From the IMG/VR virus record IMGVR_UViG_3300001450_000090, positions 10,043-37,515 of that record: DNA of 27,473 nt; one strand, given 5' to 3'. Positions 4,868 through 24,885 of this stretch are shown here, piece after piece. A program made the translations under genes and the position numbers. This DNA comes from a virus. The notes under the pieces were generated by a model. The model was not told the DNA's origin. It searched no databases and saw nothing but the letters and a program-made list of their open reading frames with translations. Position 1 is the stretch's first letter; each line of letters starts with the position of its first letter.

Positions 4868-5832
4868 CCTTCTTGTGTGTTATTATACACGATTCGATTC
4901 AAATTGGTACGTAAATCTTCCCAATTTAATTCACCGAAGCCATCTTCTCTCATCATCCCAATAATCTCAGTCTTATTGAAGGTGTATTCAAAGTTTTGTA
5001 TGGCATTTTTGACTACCATTTTTGACTGGATTGACATCGTGGGTGCGTATAGTTGCATCATCTTATAATTATGTTCAATTACCCCCTTTCCCTCAACAAT
5101 ATTAGAAAAGAATTTTAATTTACTGTTAGTTTTTTCGCAAAAGTCAATAACCTCTTGGATTGTATAGGTTTTCTCTGCAGACAAAAAATTGAGCCTTTTT
5201 GCTACTGTAGCAAAGCCAGCGCCACGAATACCCGGTAGGTTATCCGACGCATCACCGATGATTGCTCGGGCTAATGCCATGTTGGTGGGGTGGACCCCTG
5301 TCTGCTCAACGATCCTCTGCTTGTTTAGGACTTCTTTTTGAGTTGGCCGGTAGAGAACAGTCTCATCGTCGCAGAGCTGCATGAAGTCTTTATCATTGGA
5401 TACAATAATTTTTTGCCATCCCTTATAGTGCTCCATCTGTGTGAGATAAGCGATCACATCATCGGCTTCAATCTCTGGAATGATCGTTTGCACAATCGGC
5501 ATTTGATTCAGATATTCCATCGCTCTCACCTGCTGCCAAGTTTTGTTTTCTAGTACCTCGCTTTCTGTCAGGTTGTTGAACGCCCTGTTGAGCCGCAAAG
5601 GCTTACGGCCGGCCTTGTAGTTCTTGTCCATGAGCTTGCGCTTGGCGGATCCGTTAGGTCCATCCCAACATATGATAATATTATCAGGACTAGCTTCACG
5701 GACATGCTTCTGAAGAATCTTAATGAACCCCTTGATCCCCCCGATTGGTTGTCCGTTGGACGACAGTGAGGGATCTACAATATATGCCCTCAAGTATGCA
5801 TTTAACGCATCAAAAATTAGTACTCTTTTCAT
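4864..5832 (-). CDS. 5'-3' exonuclease / FEN-like RNase H (T4 Rnh type)
   Basis: It probably removes RNA primers and 5' flaps during lagging-strand synthesis. The N-terminal metal-binding part has D8 (IFDALNAY), D57 in CWDGPNG and basic KNYKAGRK. The acidic cluster E122-A-D124-D125 is followed by SNDKDF (D147, D149) and GDASDNLPGIRGAG (D194, D197), the helix-3-turn-helix that binds duplex DNA. The length of 322 aa is close to T4 RNase H (305). Its ATG directly follows the TAA of uvsE (TAAATG), with AAAGGAGAG inside the uvsE end, so the two are translationally coupled. No polymerase domain is attached; the polymerase is a separate gene. Confidence 0.92.
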   Translation of the reverse strand: MKRVLIFDALNAYLRAYIVDPSLSSNGQPIGGIKGFIKILQKHVREASPDNIIICWDGPNGSAKRKLMDKNYKAGRKPLRLNRAFNNLTESEVLENKTWQQVRAMEYLNQMPIVQTIIPEIEADDVIAYLTQMEHYKGWQKIIVSNDKDFMQLCDDETVLYRPTQKEVLNKQRIVEQTGVHPTNMALARAIIGDASDNLPGIRGAGFATVAKRLNFLSAEKTYTIQEVIDFCEKTNSKLKFFSNIVEGKGVIEHNYKMMQLYAPTMSIQSKMVVKNAIQNFEYTFNKTEIIGMMREDGFGELNWEDLRTNLNRIVYNNTQEG

Positions 5833-6762
5833 TTAAGCAGCTCTCTCCTTTGTAATATCGCGATAACGCAACAGTGCTTGTTCTTTGTGTTTGGCTTCGA
5901 TCATGATGTCGAGGTCGTGGCCGTAGTCTGAGAACTCATTGACAATGAGATCTGAATGGGCCTGTGGTTTAATCTTGGGGTTGCCGTGCTCGACTGAACG
6001 AGACTCTGCGTAGTGCACAACTGGCTTGATGTCGCCCCACGTAGACAGGGCAAGCTCAAGTGCTTCTTGCTCGGACTGGCCGCCGGGGTGCAGCATGTGG
6101 TGGTGATAGTCGAACACAATAGGAATGCCAATGCGCTTGTAGACACTGTCGTACAATTCTTTGGTAGAGTATAGCGAAGCCTTGTCATCGTTCTCGACAG
6201 TCAAGCGAGATTGAACGGCTGGTGATAGGCGTTCGAAGTTGCGACAGAAGTTGTCGAGAGCGAACGGCTTGTCACCGTAGGCGGCACCAACATGAATATT
6301 TAGCTTGGCATACGGCGTACGTGGCAAGCCGATAAGATCGAACAATTCTGCGTGTACAGACAAGTCGGTCTTGGTAAGCTGGAACACACGCTCTTTGGGT
6401 GATGCAAGCTTGTTGAAGGGGCCCGGATGTGATGTGAGGCGCATGTTGTGCTTGCGGGCAAAGTTGCCGGCTGACAATGCAGCGGCGTGAATGGCGCCGA
6501 AATTGGGCATGTCTATCAGCTTATACTCGCTGGCCCATGGCAGGATATCAGACGACAAACGATAAAAGTAAATGTCGTTGGCAAGATTCCACTCTAAGAT
6601 CTTGCGTAGATCGCGTAGATTCTGTAACGCAAGCTCGGAAGCGTAGGCAATGCCACGTTCCTTGAACGTGCGCTTGATCATAGTACGGTTAGTGGTGATG
6701 CGTTTGGACTTGGGCAACGACGAAAATTCGTGGTTGATACAAGCGTAGCCGTAATTTCTCAT
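5833..6762 (-). CDS. uvsE: UV-damage endonuclease, UvsE/UVDE family
   Basis: This is a TIM-barrel metal endonuclease that nicks 5' of cyclobutane dimers and 6-4 photoproducts, starting repair without light. N-terminal RNYGYACIN is the family opening (GYxxxN). Metal and catalytic positions are visible: H112 in TSHPGPFN, H157 in LNIHVGAAYGDK, E190 in LTVENDD, D218/H220-H222 in FDYHHHML, H250 in VVHYAESR, H269, and E289 in MIEAKHKEQALL. The 309 aa is full length for the family. It has its own promoter at 6815-6843 and is coupled to the 5' nuclease downstream, which could process the resulting nick. T4 itself uses the unrelated DenV, so this is a different solution to the same problem. The assignment is firm. 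Confidence 0.93.
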   Translation of the reverse strand: MRNYGYACINHEFSSLPKSKRITTNRTMIKRTFKERGIAYASELALQNLRDLRKILEWNLANDIYFYRLSSDILPWASEYKLIDMPNFGAIHAAALSAGNFARKHNMRLTSHPGPFNKLASPKERVFQLTKTDLSVHAELFDLIGLPRTPYAKLNIHVGAAYGDKPFALDNFCRNFERLSPAVQSRLTVENDDKASLYSTKELYDSVYKRIGIPIVFDYHHHMLHPGGQSEQEALELALSTWGDIKPVVHYAESRSVEHGNPKIKPQAHSDLIVNEFSDYGHDLDIMIEAKHKEQALLRYRDITKERAA

Positions 6763-17432: not shown

Positions 17433-20123
17433 TTAGGCGTTAGCCACTTTTACTTCTCCACCGACCACATCGATGACGAAGTTTTTCAGTGTGTCGTTGG
17501 TGTCGCCCAACTTAATTACTAATGGTGCTTGAATCTTCGTTGCGCCTTGGCTACCATCACTCTGTTTTTGGCCGGCTTGCATTGCGGCTGTCACACCGCC
17601 GCCTACTGCGCCGGCCATCAACGTTGCGGGCGCTAACGCTGCGCCGACTGCGGCGCCGGCCACAACAGTTGTTGCCAGCACTGCTTCTAAAAGTAGTGTC
17701 TTTTTCAGATCCATCTGTTCGATGGTGTTGCCCAGCAGTCGGATGGAGTCCGTGATGTCATCAATATATGTAACTTGAAAATCTTCGAATGTCTTCATAA
17801 AGCTGGTAATATCTCCTAGCTTATTAAAGTTCATTAGCTTAAGGGCTATGCTGAGGCCGGCCATGGCTATCCCCAGTGCTCCCAGAGCAATGCCGGCCGC
17901 GGCCATCAAGGGGGCGCCGTATATGAGTATTCCAAAGAACAAACTAAGTGCAAGAAGTTTGGGTACTTCGATGACACCGAACATCGAGGTCAGGCCCTCT
18001 GCCATAAATCCAACGCCGGCTGCAGCTATACCAATTCCTGCGCCAACCATAAAGATGGAGGCTCCAATAGATATCAAGACCGCAGCAAAAACGGCCATAC
18101 CGATCATCACTGGGGGTGCTGCAAGAGTTGCTCCTAAGACACCCAATCCGGCGGCCATAAACTTCGCCCCGATGGCAAGTCCAATAAGAATAATACCCAT
18201 GCCCGCCATCTGCGTGTTATCAAGCTGAGAGAATCCTAATGCCATGATCCCCAAACCGATTCCAATCATCAATATCGCTGCGCCGAACGCTAGAAGTGTC
18301 GGGATCATTGTGGATTTCGCTGCAGTAGCGGCCGTGGCGGCGCCGGTGTTCGTGCCGACTGCCGTTGTATTAGCGCCTTGGGCGATTGTGTTCAGCCCCA
18401 CGGCAGTTGTGTCTGCTGATTTGGTGAGTGTATTTTTTGCGGTTGACATTGCATTCAATTCTTCGGCGGCCGTATTGGTTGTTGTGGCAGTGGTCGCTGC
18501 CCATGTTGCATAGGAGTTGAGCAATGTAAAGAATGTGTTCGCAATCATGGCCAGCTTGATGAGGCCGAAGATACCCAGCGCTAATCCCAAATAGTATTTG
18601 TTCTCAATGATGGCTCCAGTGAATTTGGTCAAGATCTCGACAGTGGGGAGGATTGCCGTGCTGAAATCGGCCAAAAGGTTTTTGTATGAGTCCATCACAC
18701 CCTGTGCCGCGGCGGCGCGCTTCTTCTGTTCGATTAAACTTTCGGCACTTTCGTTAGTTGCCCCGCCCAATGAATCCATATCTCCAGACAGCATCATAGC
18801 CAACTCGCCAACGTCTTTAAGTCCCAGTGTGTCTTTATAGAAGTTCTTCTGGTAATAGCTCATGTCGTCGAACGATAGGCCGGCGTCGAGGATCGAATCT
18901 CGAATCATTCCGAATCGTTCAGCGGGGTCTGTCGCCATCATTAGATCCATCGCGTTAACCATATTTCCGCCCAAGGCTGCATTTAGCTTCCCGGCTTGTT
19001 CGGCTGCACCCTCAAAAGTGTCAAACTTGTTGGTGATAGCTAAGACCTTTTCCATTTCCATGCCAGTAATTTTTTGAATGTGGGCAAGGTCCTTGAAGGC
19101 TTTTACACCCTGAGAACCAAACTTGGCTAAGGAGCCGCCCATTTTTGCATATTGTGCTGCGAATTGTCCCTGTTCTATGCCTAGCGCCCGGGCGGTGGAG
19201 GCCAGTTCGCCTTGGGTTTGGATGGCTTGGATCGAGCCTTGGTTGGCAAACTTCATACTGTTCTGGACGCCCTGTGCATAGTCGCCGTATGCTACCCCAA
19301 GCTCACCGGCCAGAGAGGCAGACGTCACCAAAGCATCCTGCTCTGATTTGTTCATCAATGTAAAGTCGGTGGTAGTCTTGATTAAAGCATTCTGAGCCTC
19401 AGCGGCATTCGTCATGGTGACACCATAGGCTCGGAGTGACTGAGTGGTGCTGGTAATGCGCGACTCGTAGGCGTCTCCAAGCTGCATGTTTTTGCGAAAA
19501 TCAGCAAACACTTTGTCTGCCTCTTTAATCTGTTCGATCATGGCTGAGAAGGCCGACGTTAAGATGCCATCGCCCATAGCGGAGATCTTATTAAGTGCAA
19601 GCTGTGCTTTTTGTTTGCCTTTTATCGCTACTATGGCCTGTGCTGCAGCTGCGGTGAACTTTTTCTCAAGCGGGGATGCGGCGCCGAGGGAGCTATTTAC
19701 CTTTTCATGAGCCTCCCTGAGAGCAGTTACTGCATTCAGCTGTTTATCAAGCTCTGCAAGCGTACCGCCGGCGAGTTCGAGGGTCTTTTTTTCTTCGTCT
19801 GTCAGTTCTTTTTGTGAGATGAGCTTTTGGCGAATAACCTCTAGAATCTTTTCTTCTCTTTCTAAGCGAACTTGAGCTAAAAGGCGTGATCTTTCAGACG
19901 TCGCATATCTTTCTTTGTCTGTCGCTAGCGCTTGTTCTAATATTTCTGCTTCAGATTTAAGTTTATCGATCTTCTCCTGTGATCTGGCGATAGTGTCTTT
20001 TTCAATCTTTGCTCGTTCTTTGAGAATGTCATTAATAGCCTGAGCTTTAGTGCGACCCTCCTCCATGAGTCTATTGATTTCTGTTAATTCTGCAGGGGTA
20101 TATTTACTTTCGTCGCCAGCCAT
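17433..20123 (-). CDS. Tail tape measure protein
   Basis: This 896-aa protein sets tail length and is ejected before DNA. Residues about 15-140 are a coiled coil rich in K, E and L. A soluble helical part follows. A Thr/Ala-rich repetitive section lies at 540-605 (copies of TTAVGxNT). Long hydrophobic segments occupy about 508-540, 605-660, 672-708 and 722-760 (Gly/Ala-rich, such as ILMIGIGLGIMALG), likely to enter the host inner membrane. With about 1.5 angstrom per residue the tail would be near 134 nm. Its place after tube and chaperone genes is canonical. An AAAGGG site precedes the ATG, and a terminator stands between it and the chaperone gene. Confidence 0.9.
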   Translation of the reverse strand: MAGDESKYTPAELTEINRLMEEGRTKAQAINDILKERAKIEKDTIARSQEKIDKLKSEAEILEQALATDKERYATSERSRLLAQVRLEREEKILEVIRQKLISQKELTDEEKKTLELAGGTLAELDKQLNAVTALREAHEKVNSSLGAASPLEKKFTAAAAQAIVAIKGKQKAQLALNKISAMGDGILTSAFSAMIEQIKEADKVFADFRKNMQLGDAYESRITSTTQSLRAYGVTMTNAAEAQNALIKTTTDFTLMNKSEQDALVTSASLAGELGVAYGDYAQGVQNSMKFANQGSIQAIQTQGELASTARALGIEQGQFAAQYAKMGGSLAKFGSQGVKAFKDLAHIQKITGMEMEKVLAITNKFDTFEGAAEQAGKLNAALGGNMVNAMDLMMATDPAERFGMIRDSILDAGLSFDDMSYYQKNFYKDTLGLKDVGELAMMLSGDMDSLGGATNESAESLIEQKKRAAAAQGVMDSYKNLLADFSTAILPTVEILTKFTGAIIENKYYLGLALGIFGLIKLAMIANTFFTLLNSYATWAATTATTTNTAAEELNAMSTAKNTLTKSADTTAVGLNTIAQGANTTAVGTNTGAATAATAAKSTMIPTLLAFGAAILMIGIGLGIMALGFSQLDNTQMAGMGIILIGLAIGAKFMAAGLGVLGATLAAPPVMIGMAVFAAVLISIGASIFMVGAGIGIAAAGVGFMAEGLTSMFGVIEVPKLLALSLFFGILIYGAPLMAAAGIALGALGIAMAGLSIALKLMNFNKLGDITSFMKTFEDFQVTYIDDITDSIRLLGNTIEQMDLKKTLLLEAVLATTVVAGAAVGAALAPATLMAGAVGGGVTAAMQAGQKQSDGSQGATKIQAPLVIKLGDTNDTLKNFVIDVVGGEVKVANA

Positions 20124-20164: not shown

Positions 20165-20191
20165 AAAAAAGGTGAGGCTTTTAACCTCACC
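20165..20191 (-). terminator. Intrinsic terminator between tail chaperone and tape measure genes
   Basis: The minus-strand RNA folds GGUGAGG (20191-20185) and CCUCACC (20177-20171) around a 7-base loop, followed by six U (20170-20165). The TGA stop of the chaperone frame (20189-20187) lies in the rising stem. It probably lowers tape measure expression relative to tube and chaperone, since far fewer copies of it are needed. Confidence 0.8.
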
Positions 20192-20510
20192 CTCCGGCGC
20201 CGGGCCAGCCGCGGGGGGCTCCCGGTTGATTTTGAGCAGACAAAGTTTGCGTATTACTGCCGCCTTGACCCTTTGAGGCTTTTTGCATTGCCTCAGCTTC
20301 ATCTTTCAGTTGCTTCATAAGTCGTTTAACAAACCACTCGCGTAAACCAATTGGAAGATTGTAAGCTTCGGAAAATGACCAGCCTCCTGAATATTTTAAG
20401 AAGAAAAACTGCTCATATATGTGTTCCGAGTACTCATCGGTCAGGCCAAAAAAAGTCCGCAGTGAGCGGAACCTCCAGTTCCTGCGCATGATCACACTCA
20501 TTGCACTCAA
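20187..20510 (-). CDS. C-terminal frame of the tail assembly chaperone, probably reached by frameshift
   Basis: The frame is open from 20510 to the stop at 20189-20187. The part after the T7 run, 86 residues from G (codon at 20447), reads like a real protein: LTDEYSEHIYEQFFFLKYSGGWSFSEAYNLP in pieces, then LREWFVKRLMKQLKDEAEA and a Gly/Pro/Gln-rich tail. The upstream residues are an antiphase reading of the neighbouring gene. The only candidate starts (TTG 20510, ATG 20501) have no ribosome site, so independent translation is unlikely. The frame is +1 relative to the upstream gene. A fusion made at the T7 run would have 367 aa. In many phages a longer chaperone made by frameshift (lambda gpGT) recruits the tape measure, and this frame lies directly before that gene. 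Confidence 0.65.
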   Translation of the reverse strand: MSAMSVIMRRNWRFRSLRTFFGLTDEYSEHIYEQFFFLKYSGGWSFSEAYNLPIGLREWFVKRLMKQLKDEAEAMQKASKGQGGSNTQTLSAQNQPGAPRGWPGAGG

Positions 20511-21291
20511 AATGCTGATTCATGTCGAGATTCGGTGCCGCCATTTTAAAGACGAGCCGAAGGTGACGAGCATCCTGAGAAGGCATGTTCTCTACAAGAT
20601 AGTTAATAGATTTCTGTGTCTCATCTCCATTAACTGCGTTGATAATGAGCTTGAGTTGTCGCGTTACTGCGTTTTCATCTCGCCGGTTCTTACGTGCAGT
20701 CTCCATTTGATTCATAAGAGACTTTTCGTCGCCGCCGGTGAGAAGTCGATAAACAACTTCAACTTTTGTTTGAGGAAGAATCGTTGTAAACGTTCCGTCT
20801 CCGTTGTCTGTTGCCTCATCGGCACTCAAGCCCGCGCCGGCGTACGTTTCAATCTCATTCAAATCAAAAGAATACTCTTGATTAGCGCCACAAGCAGGGC
20901 ATCCGATTTTGGTTACGTAATCGTTGCCGTAACCGGAAATGCGTGTAGCCACAAGCACAGCGTTTCTATCGCCGACTAGCAACTGGGAAGGGTTTATGGT
21001 CTTGTTCACGATGACACTCTGTAAAAGCCGATCAAGGGCGATGCCCTTCTTTAGCAGCGAGCGCGACGTGAGTAAGTCCTCTTCTTTCGCGGTCATTTGT
21101 TTGATCTCAATTGTAGACACCCCATGTAGGGGGTGTCCTTCTGGGTAAAATTTGCCCCCAGATGGTAGCTCAACGAAATCGGTCGGGACAACAAATGAAA
21201 ATCCGTCCGAGTTACCGTCTTGCATAAGTGGCGCGGGGGGAGTGCTGTCAGTGTTACTGTGCGTTCCCATACGCTCTTTGTTTCTAGCCAA
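20434..21291 (-). CDS. gp26-like baseplate/tail assembly protein, likely the short form of a tail chaperone
   Basis: This 285-aa protein has a T4 gp26-like plan: an N-terminal part (FVVPTDFVELPSGGKFY, then STIEIKQMTAKEEDLLTSRSL), a first zinc knuckle CPACG with EYSFDLNEIE, a middle with MNQMETARKNRR, and a final knuckle CNECDHAQELEVPLTADFFWP. I take TTG 21291 as start because GAGGTG lies at the right distance, while the in-frame ATG at 21270 lacks a good site. The gene stands between the tube and tape measure genes, the usual place of tail assembly chaperones. Its last 77 bases overlap the next frame and include a T7 run and two small hairpins. Whether it remains in the virion or acts only in assembly is unknown. 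Confidence 0.7.
   Translation of the reverse strand: MARNKERMGTHSNTDSTPPAPLMQDGNSDGFSFVVPTDFVELPSGGKFYPEGHPLHGVSTIEIKQMTAKEEDLLTSRSLLKKGIALDRLLQSVIVNKTINPSQLLVGDRNAVLVATRISGYGNDYVTKIGCPACGANQEYSFDLNEIETYAGAGLSADEATDNGDGTFTTILPQTKVEVVYRLLTGGDEKSLMNQMETARKNRRDENAVTRQLKLIINAVNGDETQKSINYLVENMPSQDARHLRLVFKMAAPNLDMNQHFECNECDHAQELEVPLTADFFWPDR
20448..20454 (-). promoter_or_regulatory. Putative programmed frameshift site (T7 run) in the chaperone overlap
   Basis: The upstream frame reads GAC TTT TTT TGG. A +1 slip of the Phe tRNA on TTT-T, or a -2 slip, re-pairs fully and enters the next frame at GGC. A 5-bp hairpin (20456-20470, TCCGC/GCGGA) lies right before it and another (20468-20482, GGAAC/GTTCC) before that, with an internal GGAGG in the loop region. 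A -1 slip would not reach the open frame. Confidence 0.6.
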
Positions 21292-21314: not shown

Positions 21315-21899
21315 TTAAATCTTGAAGAACTCAGAACCGCCGGAAGTCTTAAGGGCGGAACCATCTGTGTTCTCGGTTTTGAGCATGGCCCAGTCATACT
21401 TGAGGGTCAGTGCAACTTCAGTTAAGTCGTCACCGCCATACTCCAAATCTCCGTACTTGACTTCAGAGAGCCAAGAGTTATAAAGTGTCCACTTCTCAAG
21501 AGAGTTGCCATCCGAATCAATTTGTGTTACGGTAACGGCACCAAGCGCAGTAGAGGCCTTAGCCTTCGACATTGTAGCCCACTCGTTAACGTTGGGGGGC
21601 GGTGTATAACCTGCCTGAACAACAATGTCCGAGAAGGTAGCCGCAACGTCTGGATCGACGGGGTCTACTAAGGTAATACTCACATCTTGCCATGTCACCG
21701 AACCGGGGTAAAAGAACGTATGGTTAAGGTACTTGTGCTCTGCGGCGCCGATTTGGAACGAAGGCTTAGATGCTGCCTTAGCGTACCATGCGGTTGCGTT
21801 CTCGCCAGAGATACCGTCAAAGTTTACAATAAATCTAAATTTTCTTTTGGGGTCTCTTAAAGTAGCGTCTTCGCTATGATTTTTTGTCCAGAATGGCAT
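21315..21899 (-). CDS. Tail tube protein, gp19-like
   Basis: At 194 aa it fits T4 gp19 (163 aa) with small additions. Typical features are the N-terminal PKRKFRFIVNFDGI, the central AASKPSFQIGAAEHKYLNHTFFYPGSVTWQDVSITLVDP in pieces, and the late LYNSWLSEVKYGDLEYGGDDLTEVALTLKYDWA, which form the beta-sandwich of stacked tube rings. It follows the sheath gene and precedes the chaperone gene, the normal order. The start has CAGGAG about 11 bases upstream, a rather long spacing. Confidence 0.92.
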   Translation of the reverse strand: MPFWTKNHSEDATLRDPKRKFRFIVNFDGISGENATAWYAKAASKPSFQIGAAEHKYLNHTFFYPGSVTWQDVSITLVDPVDPDVAATFSDIVVQAGYTPPPNVNEWATMSKAKASTALGAVTVTQIDSDGNSLEKWTLYNSWLSEVKYGDLEYGGDDLTEVALTLKYDWAMLKTENTDGSALKTSGGSEFFKI

Positions 21900-21966: not shown

Positions 21967-24885
21967 TTAGTCATCAAATGATGCGCCGGTAGACATAATC
22001 ACGAAGTCAATCGCGATGTATTCGATGGCGCGTGCGGGCTTGACCATGATCTTCGCATAGAGAATGTTTTGATCAATCAAGTCCGGTGTGGTCGTACTCT
22101 CATCAAGAATCAGGCGATAATCGGTGATGCCGAAATCAACCTTGACATTGGCAAGGAACGGCTCAATAAGGTTAATGAATCGACTCCATGTGGCCTGTAC
22201 GTTTTGCTCAAACAACACCTGTGTGGAGAGAACCGAAATCTGCTTCTTGAGATAGATAACGAGTCGTCGCACGTTGATGCGGTCGAGAGCGGACTGGCGC
22301 TCTTGGAGTGTCTTCTGTCCGAAGACAACGATTCCACTGGAGGGGAACGAAGCAATCGGGTTGATTCGTGCCTCATAGAGAGTGTCGCGGTCCTTGGAAG
22401 ACAGTCGCTCGGTCACGTTTGTAACCGGGATGCCTGCAGCACCGTCGGTGAGACCACCGCGGTTGAATCCGGCCGGAGCAAACCATGCAGCCGACTTGGC
22501 TTCAGAGCTTGCAAGAACGCCCAACATAACAACACTGGGTGGGACCCACAGCAAACGGCCGGTGGACTCATCGCGAGTCTGAACCCATGGGTAGTAGGTT
22601 GCACCATAGCTGGTGTCAAGCCTTCTGTCCTTGAGGGAGCTGGCGGCTGTTGTCGGGGTTGTGCCAATGCGACTTGTTTTGTCAGAGTAGTATCGCTCCG
22701 AAGAGGGAATGTACACGTCTGCCAAGTCGATAAGGGCCATGGCGTCGGCGCGCTCGGAACACACATTCAACATGTGAGTGGTGAGCGTATCTTGGGTAAG
22801 ACCCGGCGTTGCCAGAAGGTTCATATTAATGTACTCTGGATCGGCAACCGTGTCAATTGCGCGCTTGTACGTGTGGAAGGCGTAAGATGTATCTTCCGTT
22901 GCTGCTGCGGCGATGCCTCGGTTGTACATCGGGTCAGGCTTCATAATGTCAAAGCCATCGAAACCACCCCAGAACGGTGCCGTGAAGCGGTTATAGCCGG
23001 CATCCAACAGTGTCGTGTAGGTGTTCGACCCGCGTGCCGATGTGCTTAGGCCGGTCTTACGAGAACCAGAAGCGTATGTCTGCACACTGTCACTTGAGGA
23101 ACTCACATTATCCATCGTAAAGATGTATGAGTAACCTTCAATAGCAGAAGATGCGGACACGTTATAGCTAGCTGCTGTAGTGTCAACTGGAACTCCAGAG
23201 GTGCTGCCTAAGTTGGCATACCATAAGCGCTGCGGATCTGCAACGCTTGCGTCGGGGCGCGTAGACGTCGAGGTGCGTGTGACCTCGAAACCGAAGTAAG
23301 CTTTGGTGGGATCCGAGAGACTTCCATCTGTCGCCTTGGAGCGCAAGCGCACCGAAGGGAAGAAGAAGGTTGCGCGGGCGGAGGCGCCGAACGACGAGGA
23401 GATCATCGGAACTCCTGCAGTATTGCTGTAGCCCGGGGTACCCTTTCCAACTCGGATGAATCTTTGCAAAAGCTGATTTCCGTTTGACGATACGCATGGA
23501 ATTGGTTCCGAGATGTCTCGGAGCTTGGGAGGCCCATAATAGCCGAATGGCAGAAGGATTGGGTCTGTTGCGCCAGCCTCTACGTCCGCATTCATTTCAA
23601 CTCGGACAAATTTAGACAAGTTATCAAAATCGCCATAAGTCTTAAGTGTGCGCGAAGTGGAATCCCAGCGATCAAACTTATCGCCAATCTTACGAGCTAC
23701 GTAATTGGGTGAAGAGGGGTCAAGTGTCAGGTTATCATAACGCTCCATAACGACCACATTACTGTCGGTGTCCGAGAGTTGTCTGAGAACAATCGAGAAT
23801 GTTCCATAATCAGTAGTGGTGGTGTTGGACTGGCGAACCTTCTCAATAGATACCTTAAGGTTCCTGTTGATCCATTCGCCATGGCCGCGGCCAATAAGGC
23901 GGAACAGCTTCACGGCTGATGCCGGATTATAAGACGCATAGTTTCCGAGATCCTGACCAATGAACCAGCCAGCTACAGCTTCCTGAGATGGAATTCCCTT
24001 CATTCTGTGTGGACCGATAGTTTCAGCGGAGCCCGAGGCCAAGCCGGCAATGAAGCCAACAAGCTTGGTGCTGCCACCGCCTGTAAGAGAGCGCTCGCGC
24101 AGTTCCTGCTCGAAAGACTCACCAAGCCAGTAGTAGTTGTAAGAAGCCGACGGATAGAAGTCCCCCTTATCGGAAGTCAATTGGGGGTTTGTGTTCAGAC
24201 GCTTGCGAATAAACAACTCGGAAGTGTCATTAAAGTTGACGGAATAAACCTTTTCGCCTTCGGCGAGGTTGCGGAGACAAAGCTTGAAGTTACCATTTGA
24301 ATCGCTCTCGACCAATGTCGAAGAAGCACAAACAGTGAAGCCGCTGCCGCTGCCGTGGGCGATGGTTCCGGATAGCATCACGGAGCCGCTCTGTGCATAG
24401 ATGATGGCTCCCAGCTGCAGGCCGTAAGTCGAGCCGGTCAGAAGGCCGTTAGAAGAAGAAGGGGCCACGAAGAATCCGTAAGCGCCGCCATCCGAACCCG
24501 TAACCGGGACACCAGTGGTCTTCCAGCCTGATTGGGCATCTGCAGTGCCATCGTTAGTGGTGGTCTGTTGGCCAAGGAGGCGCATGTATGTAAGAGGAGC
24601 CACGTTTGCGCGAAGGAATGCCTTGGCGGCGTAGGTGCCGTACATCGGGGACTGTTTGTTGCCGTTGCGGTAAATGTCACCACCGCCGTTACCGGGAACT
24701 GTGTCGCCGAACATCTCCACAAACTTGGAGTAAGACTCTACCGTGACCGGCGTCATTGCAAGGCCACGTTGGGAGCGGCCGATGACTACCGGTCCGATTG
24801 CATCTGCCGATTTCGGGATAAACGAGTTATCAATCTCATGGATAAATACCCCCGGAGATACAAATTTAAAACTTTTTACTGACAT
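21967..24885 (-). CDS. Contractile tail sheath protein, gp18-like, enlarged
   Basis: The N-terminal handshake part is typical: FVSPGVFIHEIDNSF, then GPVVIGRSQRGLAMTPVTV and SYSKFVEMFGD. The conserved C-terminal part from about 780 has NPIASFPSSGIVVFGQKTL, then DRINVRRLVIYLKKQI, FEQNVQATWSRF, and PARAIEYIAIDFVIMSTG. At 972 aa it is about 300 residues longer than T4 gp18 (659). The extra mass lies in the middle (about 100-750), a Ser/Thr/Gly-rich region that should form outward domains. The start follows GAGAGGAACCAATA. The order neck, sheath, tube is that of T4. Confidence 0.95.
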   Translation of the reverse strand: MSVKSFKFVSPGVFIHEIDNSFIPKSADAIGPVVIGRSQRGLAMTPVTVESYSKFVEMFGDTVPGNGGGDIYRNGNKQSPMYGTYAAKAFLRANVAPLTYMRLLGQQTTTNDGTADAQSGWKTTGVPVTGSDGGAYGFFVAPSSSNGLLTGSTYGLQLGAIIYAQSGSVMLSGTIAHGSGSGFTVCASSTLVESDSNGNFKLCLRNLAEGEKVYSVNFNDTSELFIRKRLNTNPQLTSDKGDFYPSASYNYYWLGESFEQELRERSLTGGGSTKLVGFIAGLASGSAETIGPHRMKGIPSQEAVAGWFIGQDLGNYASYNPASAVKLFRLIGRGHGEWINRNLKVSIEKVRQSNTTTTDYGTFSIVLRQLSDTDSNVVVMERYDNLTLDPSSPNYVARKIGDKFDRWDSTSRTLKTYGDFDNLSKFVRVEMNADVEAGATDPILLPFGYYGPPKLRDISEPIPCVSSNGNQLLQRFIRVGKGTPGYSNTAGVPMISSSFGASARATFFFPSVRLRSKATDGSLSDPTKAYFGFEVTRTSTSTRPDASVADPQRLWYANLGSTSGVPVDTTAASYNVSASSAIEGYSYIFTMDNVSSSSDSVQTYASGSRKTGLSTSARGSNTYTTLLDAGYNRFTAPFWGGFDGFDIMKPDPMYNRGIAAAATEDTSYAFHTYKRAIDTVADPEYINMNLLATPGLTQDTLTTHMLNVCSERADAMALIDLADVYIPSSERYYSDKTSRIGTTPTTAASSLKDRRLDTSYGATYYPWVQTRDESTGRLLWVPPSVVMLGVLASSEAKSAAWFAPAGFNRGGLTDGAAGIPVTNVTERLSSKDRDTLYEARINPIASFPSSGIVVFGQKTLQERQSALDRINVRRLVIYLKKQISVLSTQVLFEQNVQATWSRFINLIEPFLANVKVDFGITDYRLILDESTTTPDLIDQNILYAKIMVKPARAIEYIAIDFVIMSTGASFDD

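Follow-up and report, generated by a model that had tools for sequence, protein, structure and literature searches.

In phage lambda, the tail assembly chaperone pair gpG/gpGT arises by a −1 frameshift, and Listeria PSA carries a +1 frameshift site. Phage Mu uses a −2 mode, the chaperone of halovirus HSTV-2 has been called "very likely +1," and T4 has long been listed as an exception to chaperone frameshifting (PMC5009743). In T4, gp26 and gp51 come from separate genes that lie on opposite strands. Tail assembly chaperones (TACs) of T4-like phages were reportedly described by Vladimirov, Gautam and Davidson 2022 (Virology 566:9). One-base forward slips are known from prfB, in which the P-site tRNA slips at CUU_UGA with the help of an upstream Shine-Dalgarno (SD) sequence, and from influenza PA-X, whose measured +1 shift at UCC_UUU_CGU provides a precedent for slipping at UUU_C (PMC3498833).

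Here we describe a chaperone locus in the window, by which we mean the whole stretch of 27,473 nucleotides that was analyzed, itself part of a 38,771-base virus record. Judging from comparative sequence analysis, this locus very probably expresses two forms of a T4 gp26-family tail assembly chaperone through a programmed +1 frameshift with upstream stimulators. The pair looks like a counterpart of lambda gpG/gpGT, but the predicted shift is +1 at a UUU_Y site (UUU followed by U or C), and the N-terminal protein belongs to the same family as T4 gp26 and gp51 (PF12322). Whereas T4 has separate genes for the short and long forms, both are predicted here from one locus. The predicted event resembles prfB in combining a one-base forward slip of the P-site tRNA with an upstream SD, and it resembles PA-X in its slip codon. 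It differs from known +1 sites in that the A site holds no stop codon (UGG in most loci) and the SD is separated from the slip codon by a hairpin. As far as the papers citing Vladimirov et al. 2022 indicate, the +1 mode, the stimulatory elements, and the direction switches appear to be new.

Gene order and overlapping frames

Domain matches and annotated relatives give the gene order as tail sheath, gp19-like tube, gp26-like protein, extension, and presumed tape measure, all on the minus strand. The tube gene (21315..21899; PF06841, phrog_4542) is directly upstream of the chaperone frames. Directly downstream is the presumed tape-measure gene (17433..20123, 896 aa), whose product has no PHROG or Pfam match of its own and is named from its position and from the annotation at the equivalent position in Flavobacterium phage immuto and in LIS04. 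The chaperone pair lies between the tube and the presumed tape measure, as expected of a TAC pair. The sheath protein (21967-24885) is long at 972 aa, with sheath homology confined to its C-terminal 60%.

The upstream, zero-frame ORF (20434..21291, minus strand) encodes 285 aa from a TTG at 21291, with an AGGTGA-type ribosome binding site within 21305-21292. Its product had been predicted to be gp26-like, and it matches PF12322 with 68.7 bits against a cut-off of 24.5 (E 7.6e-19). The match to phrog_150 (E 5.5e-19) spans positions 12-233 of 282, the N part only; this product would be the short form (TAC-N). Structures were predicted from sequence alignments made up of window proteins and proteins from related loci. 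The AF2 model of the N part (pLDDT 86.6, pTM 0.80) has as its top PDB fold match 2OB9, the HK97 gp13 tail assembly chaperone, although the match is weak (E 0.16, prob 0.82, TM to target 0.47).

The zero frame ends at a TGA (20434..20436), the fifth codon past the second TTT of the sequence GAC TTT TTT TGG. The downstream frame is offset by +1 (equivalently −2) and is open from 20519 to a stop at 20189-20187. The two frames share a stop-free overlap of 86 nt (20434..20519); the 77 bases given in the original prediction count from the first TTG, at 20510. As that prediction also stated, the overlap holds a T7 run (20454-20448). A +1 slip at this run joins ...LTADFF to GLTDEY... and is followed by 86 codons, yielding a 367-residue product. 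The added helical domain of 86 aa (20187..20447, minus strand) would be found only in this frameshift product (TAC-NC). A −1 slip of the lambda type would instead reach a stop after two residues (LA). A single open frame this long has a probability of about 0.0025 in random sequence of the same GC content. The extended frame has strong sequence evidence, and the locus is predicted to give a short and a C-terminally extended form. Right where the extension stops, ahead of the presumed tape measure, a GTGAGG/CCTCAC stem followed by T6 (about 20193-20167, minus strand) resembles an intrinsic terminator; our terminator pattern scan did not list it.

Conservation of the offset and the slip codon

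Two viral-contig scans and Microcystis phage Mel-JY01 provided a first pass of 156 sequences, counting the window, in which both parts are present; the offset is +1 in all 156. We then widened the survey with divergent relatives from isolate phages and four more scans, using single divergent proteins as queries. Among 356 loci with a scorable N-domain end, a count that includes overlapping loci of one contig, the C-domain lies in the +1 frame in 332 and in the −1 frame in 17; the other 7 are cut by the contig end. Dereplication left 212 +1 and 17 −1 sequences, and the +1 offset holds as well in seven MAG contigs (L365-L371) that we found later. In the +1 frame, the C-domain has a pN/pS ratio of 0.14, compared to 3.1 and 0.94 in the other two, and conservation starts at the slip, with the GLT motif. 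This comparative evidence is decisive: the conserved offset and the coding constraint in the shifted frame confirm the proposal of overlapping frames with a conserved protein downstream, and the arrangement is not due to chance. Agreement among hundreds of contigs and several isolate genomes leads us to reject a sequencing error in the T run. Programmed +1 frameshifting to make the long form of this gp26-type chaperone is, by these comparisons, well supported.

At the junction, every one of the 212 dereplicated +1 loci has a zero-frame TTT codon with T or C as the next base, so that its tRNA could re-pair after a +1 move. The commonest form is that of the window, TTT TTT TGG (161 loci), followed by TTT CTT (28), TTC TTT TGG (8), and TTT CTA (4). 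A few other variants include those of Streptomyces phages (CTG TTT CAG/CGC), LIS04, Bacillus phage SP-15, and Streptococcus phage SagM-GXN1 (TTC TTT CGT). Thus, among relatives, the frame offset has been kept while the T run has been interrupted in several lineages.

The variant sites bear directly on the direction of the slip, which the original prediction had left as +1 or −2. In a Mu-like −2 slip, a mode with published precedent (PMC5009743), the ribosome would move back by two bases within the T7 run, inserting one extra Phe. Re-pairing after such a slip is also perfect on the window's T7, and the GGAGGU motif upstream is at a greater distance from the slip codon than the SD of prfB, a spacing that would favor backward slips if the intervening hairpin were unformed. 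However, at TTC TTT T, CTG TTT C, TTC TTT C, and NNC TTT C, the +1 move re-pairs fully, whereas a −2 move at TTC TTT TGG, CTG TTT CAG/CGC, TTC TTT CGT, or NNC TTT CTN would place tRNA-Phe on a mismatch (UCU, UGU, ACU, or similar), and these loci keep the offset. The TTT CTT clade is by itself undecisive, since a −2 slip at CTT could re-pair there. Because −2 cannot re-pair in several relatives in which +1 can, we favor +1 and consider −2 slippage very unlikely. Programmed frameshifting as such is supported by the conserved offset, the slip codon, and the synonymous constraint described below.

The same interrupted runs (TTC TTT TGG, CTG TTT CAG, TTC TTT CGT) speak against slippage by RNA polymerase, which had been named as the rival explanation. 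Here, a one-base deletion or two-base insertion at the T7 run in some of the mRNAs would allow standard decoding to yield the fusion. A homopolymer is present in most relatives, and a hairpin followed by a T run resembles an intrinsic terminator; indeed, our terminator scan flags the hairpin and T7 at 20470-20456. Yet T7 is short for efficient polymerase slippage, and several lineages with no homopolymer longer than 3-4 bases (TTTCTTTGG, CTGTTTCAG, TTCTTTCGT, TTTCTATTC) keep the offset. For the latter reason, we regard transcript slippage as highly improbable.

Annotation raises a third possibility, namely that the C-domain is a separate gene translated by reinitiation or coupling from its own start, an ATG in some relatives and a non-canonical codon here. 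In the annotated phage records that we inspected, the C part either stands as a hypothetical gene of its own or is missing, and the gp26-family gene is nowhere given as a joined frameshift CDS (PP395634, MW353176, KT624200, OQ999172, PQ819873, NC_004735, OR725497, AY939844, AY283928, and others). An ATG precedes the core in the open +1 frame in 131/212 loci, so separate initiation is possible in individual loci. Nevertheless, an ATG with an SD-like motif is found in only 10 of the 212, and 31 have no ATG, GTG, or TTG before the core. The window itself has none of these codons in the +1 frame from the slip to an ATG inside the C-domain (about 20318). Moreover, conservation begins at the slip rather than at a downstream start, the slip codons are under synonymous constraint, and the site in −1 relatives is a textbook slippery heptamer. 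Two loci, L273 and L278, do look like separate genes, but they are derived losses within the +1 clade (see below). We therefore give separate initiation hardly any weight as a general explanation; the variation at the slip site, the start codons, and the derived losses together count against it and the two slippage alternatives. If the +1 reading is correct, annotation should be amended in the many phage genomes in which the C part has been split off or missed.

Constraint on the upstream SD-like motif and hairpin

Two elements precede the slip site (20448..20454). A hairpin of the form CCGC-N5-GCGG (20457..20469, minus strand), with arms at 20469-20466 and 20460-20457, ends two nt 5' of it; of the two small hairpins originally proposed before the T run, this is the one that is conserved. 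On the 5' side of the hairpin is an SD-like GGAGGU (20471..20476, minus strand). A search of Rfam found nothing.

We examined selection on these elements in the window clade, a set of 82 sequences. Synonymous variation collapses at codons 250-261 (numbering internal to the constraint analysis, near the 3' end of the gene), where the lowest 9-codon window ratio is 0.20 against a gene median of 0.94. The GAG codon within GGAGGU is invariant (82/82), compared to a usage of about 41%, and the hairpin codons CCG (79/82) and GCG (81/82) have usages of only about 22% and 21%. Similarly, Asp is encoded by GAC in 80 of 81 cases, and TTT is used in 81/82 sequences as the first slip codon and in 82/82 as the second. 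The constrained string of the clade can be written GGAGGU-N-CCGC-N5-GCGG-AC-UUUUUUU.

Folding and pairing calculations agree with this pattern. The 21 nt before the slip (−21 to −1) have a minimum free energy of −6.7, compared to −1.3 in synonymous shuffles (mean z −3.75, with all 82 sequences below −1). Pairing to the anti-SD is likewise stronger than in synonymous shuffles (z of the mean −14.7); because the sequences are related, the z values for both hairpin and anti-SD are descriptive. We found no compensatory base changes in the hairpin, and exceptions in the window clade simply weaken it. In other clades, the SD-like and hairpin signals are weaker or farther away, with a mean hairpin z of −0.5 to −1.8. 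Synonymous constraint, folding, and SD pairing thus indicate selection on the candidate stimulatory signals in the window clade.

These features suggest how the two forms would be made. Most ribosomes would stop at the TGA (20436-20434) and release TAC-N. In a minority, the P-site tRNA-Phe (anticodon GAA) at UUU UUU U would slip +1 onto the overlapping UUU, or UUC in some relatives, and the ribosome would continue in the +1 frame to add the 86-residue helical domain. The resulting TAC-NC would be the analog of lambda gpGT, and the pair may act on the tape measure and tube as gpG/gpGT do. Pairing of GGAGGU with 16S rRNA and the CCGC/GCGG hairpin just upstream would both stimulate the forward slip. 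If the hairpin were looped out, only 3 nt would separate the SD from the first UUU, the distance seen in prfB; this geometry applies to the window clade only. UUU_Y sites with a conserved upstream SD and hairpin offer a comparative data set useful for the study of bacterial +1 frameshifting.

The T4 proteins, −1 relatives, and in-frame fusions

Comparison with T4 clarifies the relationship of the two parts. The family profile aligns to T4 gp26 by hhalign (P 3e-5), and the PHROG scan places gp26 at positions 14-235 of phrog_150 and gp51 at 13-280. T4 gp51 gave only a weak match to the N profile alone, a discrepancy that the PHROG scan resolved. Small cyanophage proteins called "gp51" match phrog_150 at 230-278 or phrog_634. 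By these matches, T4 gp26 is the short form and gp51 is the long form, which fits both the title of Vladimirov et al. 2022 and the papers citing it. Since gp26 matches N only and gp51 matches N and C, the window gene looks like a TAC-N/TAC-NC gene, equivalent to gpG/gpGT, and the earlier proposal that gp26 corresponds to gpG gains support. T4 gene 26 (5803-6429 of its locus, L170, minus strand) ends ...GAG TTC TTT GAG TTA CTA TAA, in which Phe-Phe is kept and the slip motif is gone.

The direction of the offset varies within the family. In a 13-row clade of cyanophages, KVP40, and jumbo phages, gp26 and a small gene ("gp51") correspond to homologous N and C parts whose frames overlap at the same Phe-Phe. 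However, these pairs have a −1 offset at T_TTT_TTC or T_TTT_TTT, in contrast to the +1 of the window. Most have the canonical T_TTT_TTC, while XacN1 and RAS14 have the −1 offset at T_TTT_TTT. A second small group (LR756511, L283) is also −1. L273 and L278 are counted among the 17 −1 loci and are nested in the +1 clade; they lack UUU_Y (TTC TTG and TTC CTT), and the C-domain, out of frame in both, has an ATG of its own just past the upstream stop. On the tree, the +1 label must have changed at least three times, with the positions of some long branches unsure. One tentative reading, which we think possible but somewhat doubtful, is that a single homologous Phe-Phe codon pair has been repeatedly re-tooled between −1 (T_TTT_TTC) and +1 (UUU_Y), and that the forward slip of the window clade is driven by an SD brought to within 3 nt of the first UUU by the looped-out hairpin. 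If this reading is true, the direction of the shift would be set by flanking elements and not by the slip codons.

The C-domain may have relatives outside phages. Its model (pLDDT 72) has no PDB fold match, and in the window it scores 14.9-16.1 bits against DUF6760 (PF20546), below the cut-off of 27; the domain is likely related to DUF6760 without reaching Pfam membership. Bacterial contractile injection loci contain proteins with a similar domain order, PF12322-like followed by DUF6760, but there the two are fused in one ORF (L374 and L375, both 859-1623). The fused gene adjoins a gp19-like tube, with Pvc16_N also present in L374, and the ORF would represent a long-form chaperone made without a frameshift. 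Relatives in which the two parts share a frame had been named as evidence against the frameshift; those found are confined to these distant systems, and the fusion indicates that the N and C parts belong to a single protein as its domains, which does not refute the frameshift. The comparison also points to DUF6760 having a role in injection systems. The gp26/gp51 pair falls on a spectrum of one locus with +1, one locus with −1, an in-frame fusion, and two genes, so that the way in which a programmed shift changes direction or is lost can be tested directly.

Three further loci deserve mention. L379 resembles L374 and L375 by sequence, although the domain model did not confirm its C part. In L373 (reverse; N 1115-1486, C 1471-1665) and L377 (reverse), the C part is in the −1 frame and overlaps N near a G run, at TCG GGG GAA TCA TAG and TTG GGG GAG TCC TGA, respectively; frameshifting and stop-start coupling are both possible at these junctions.
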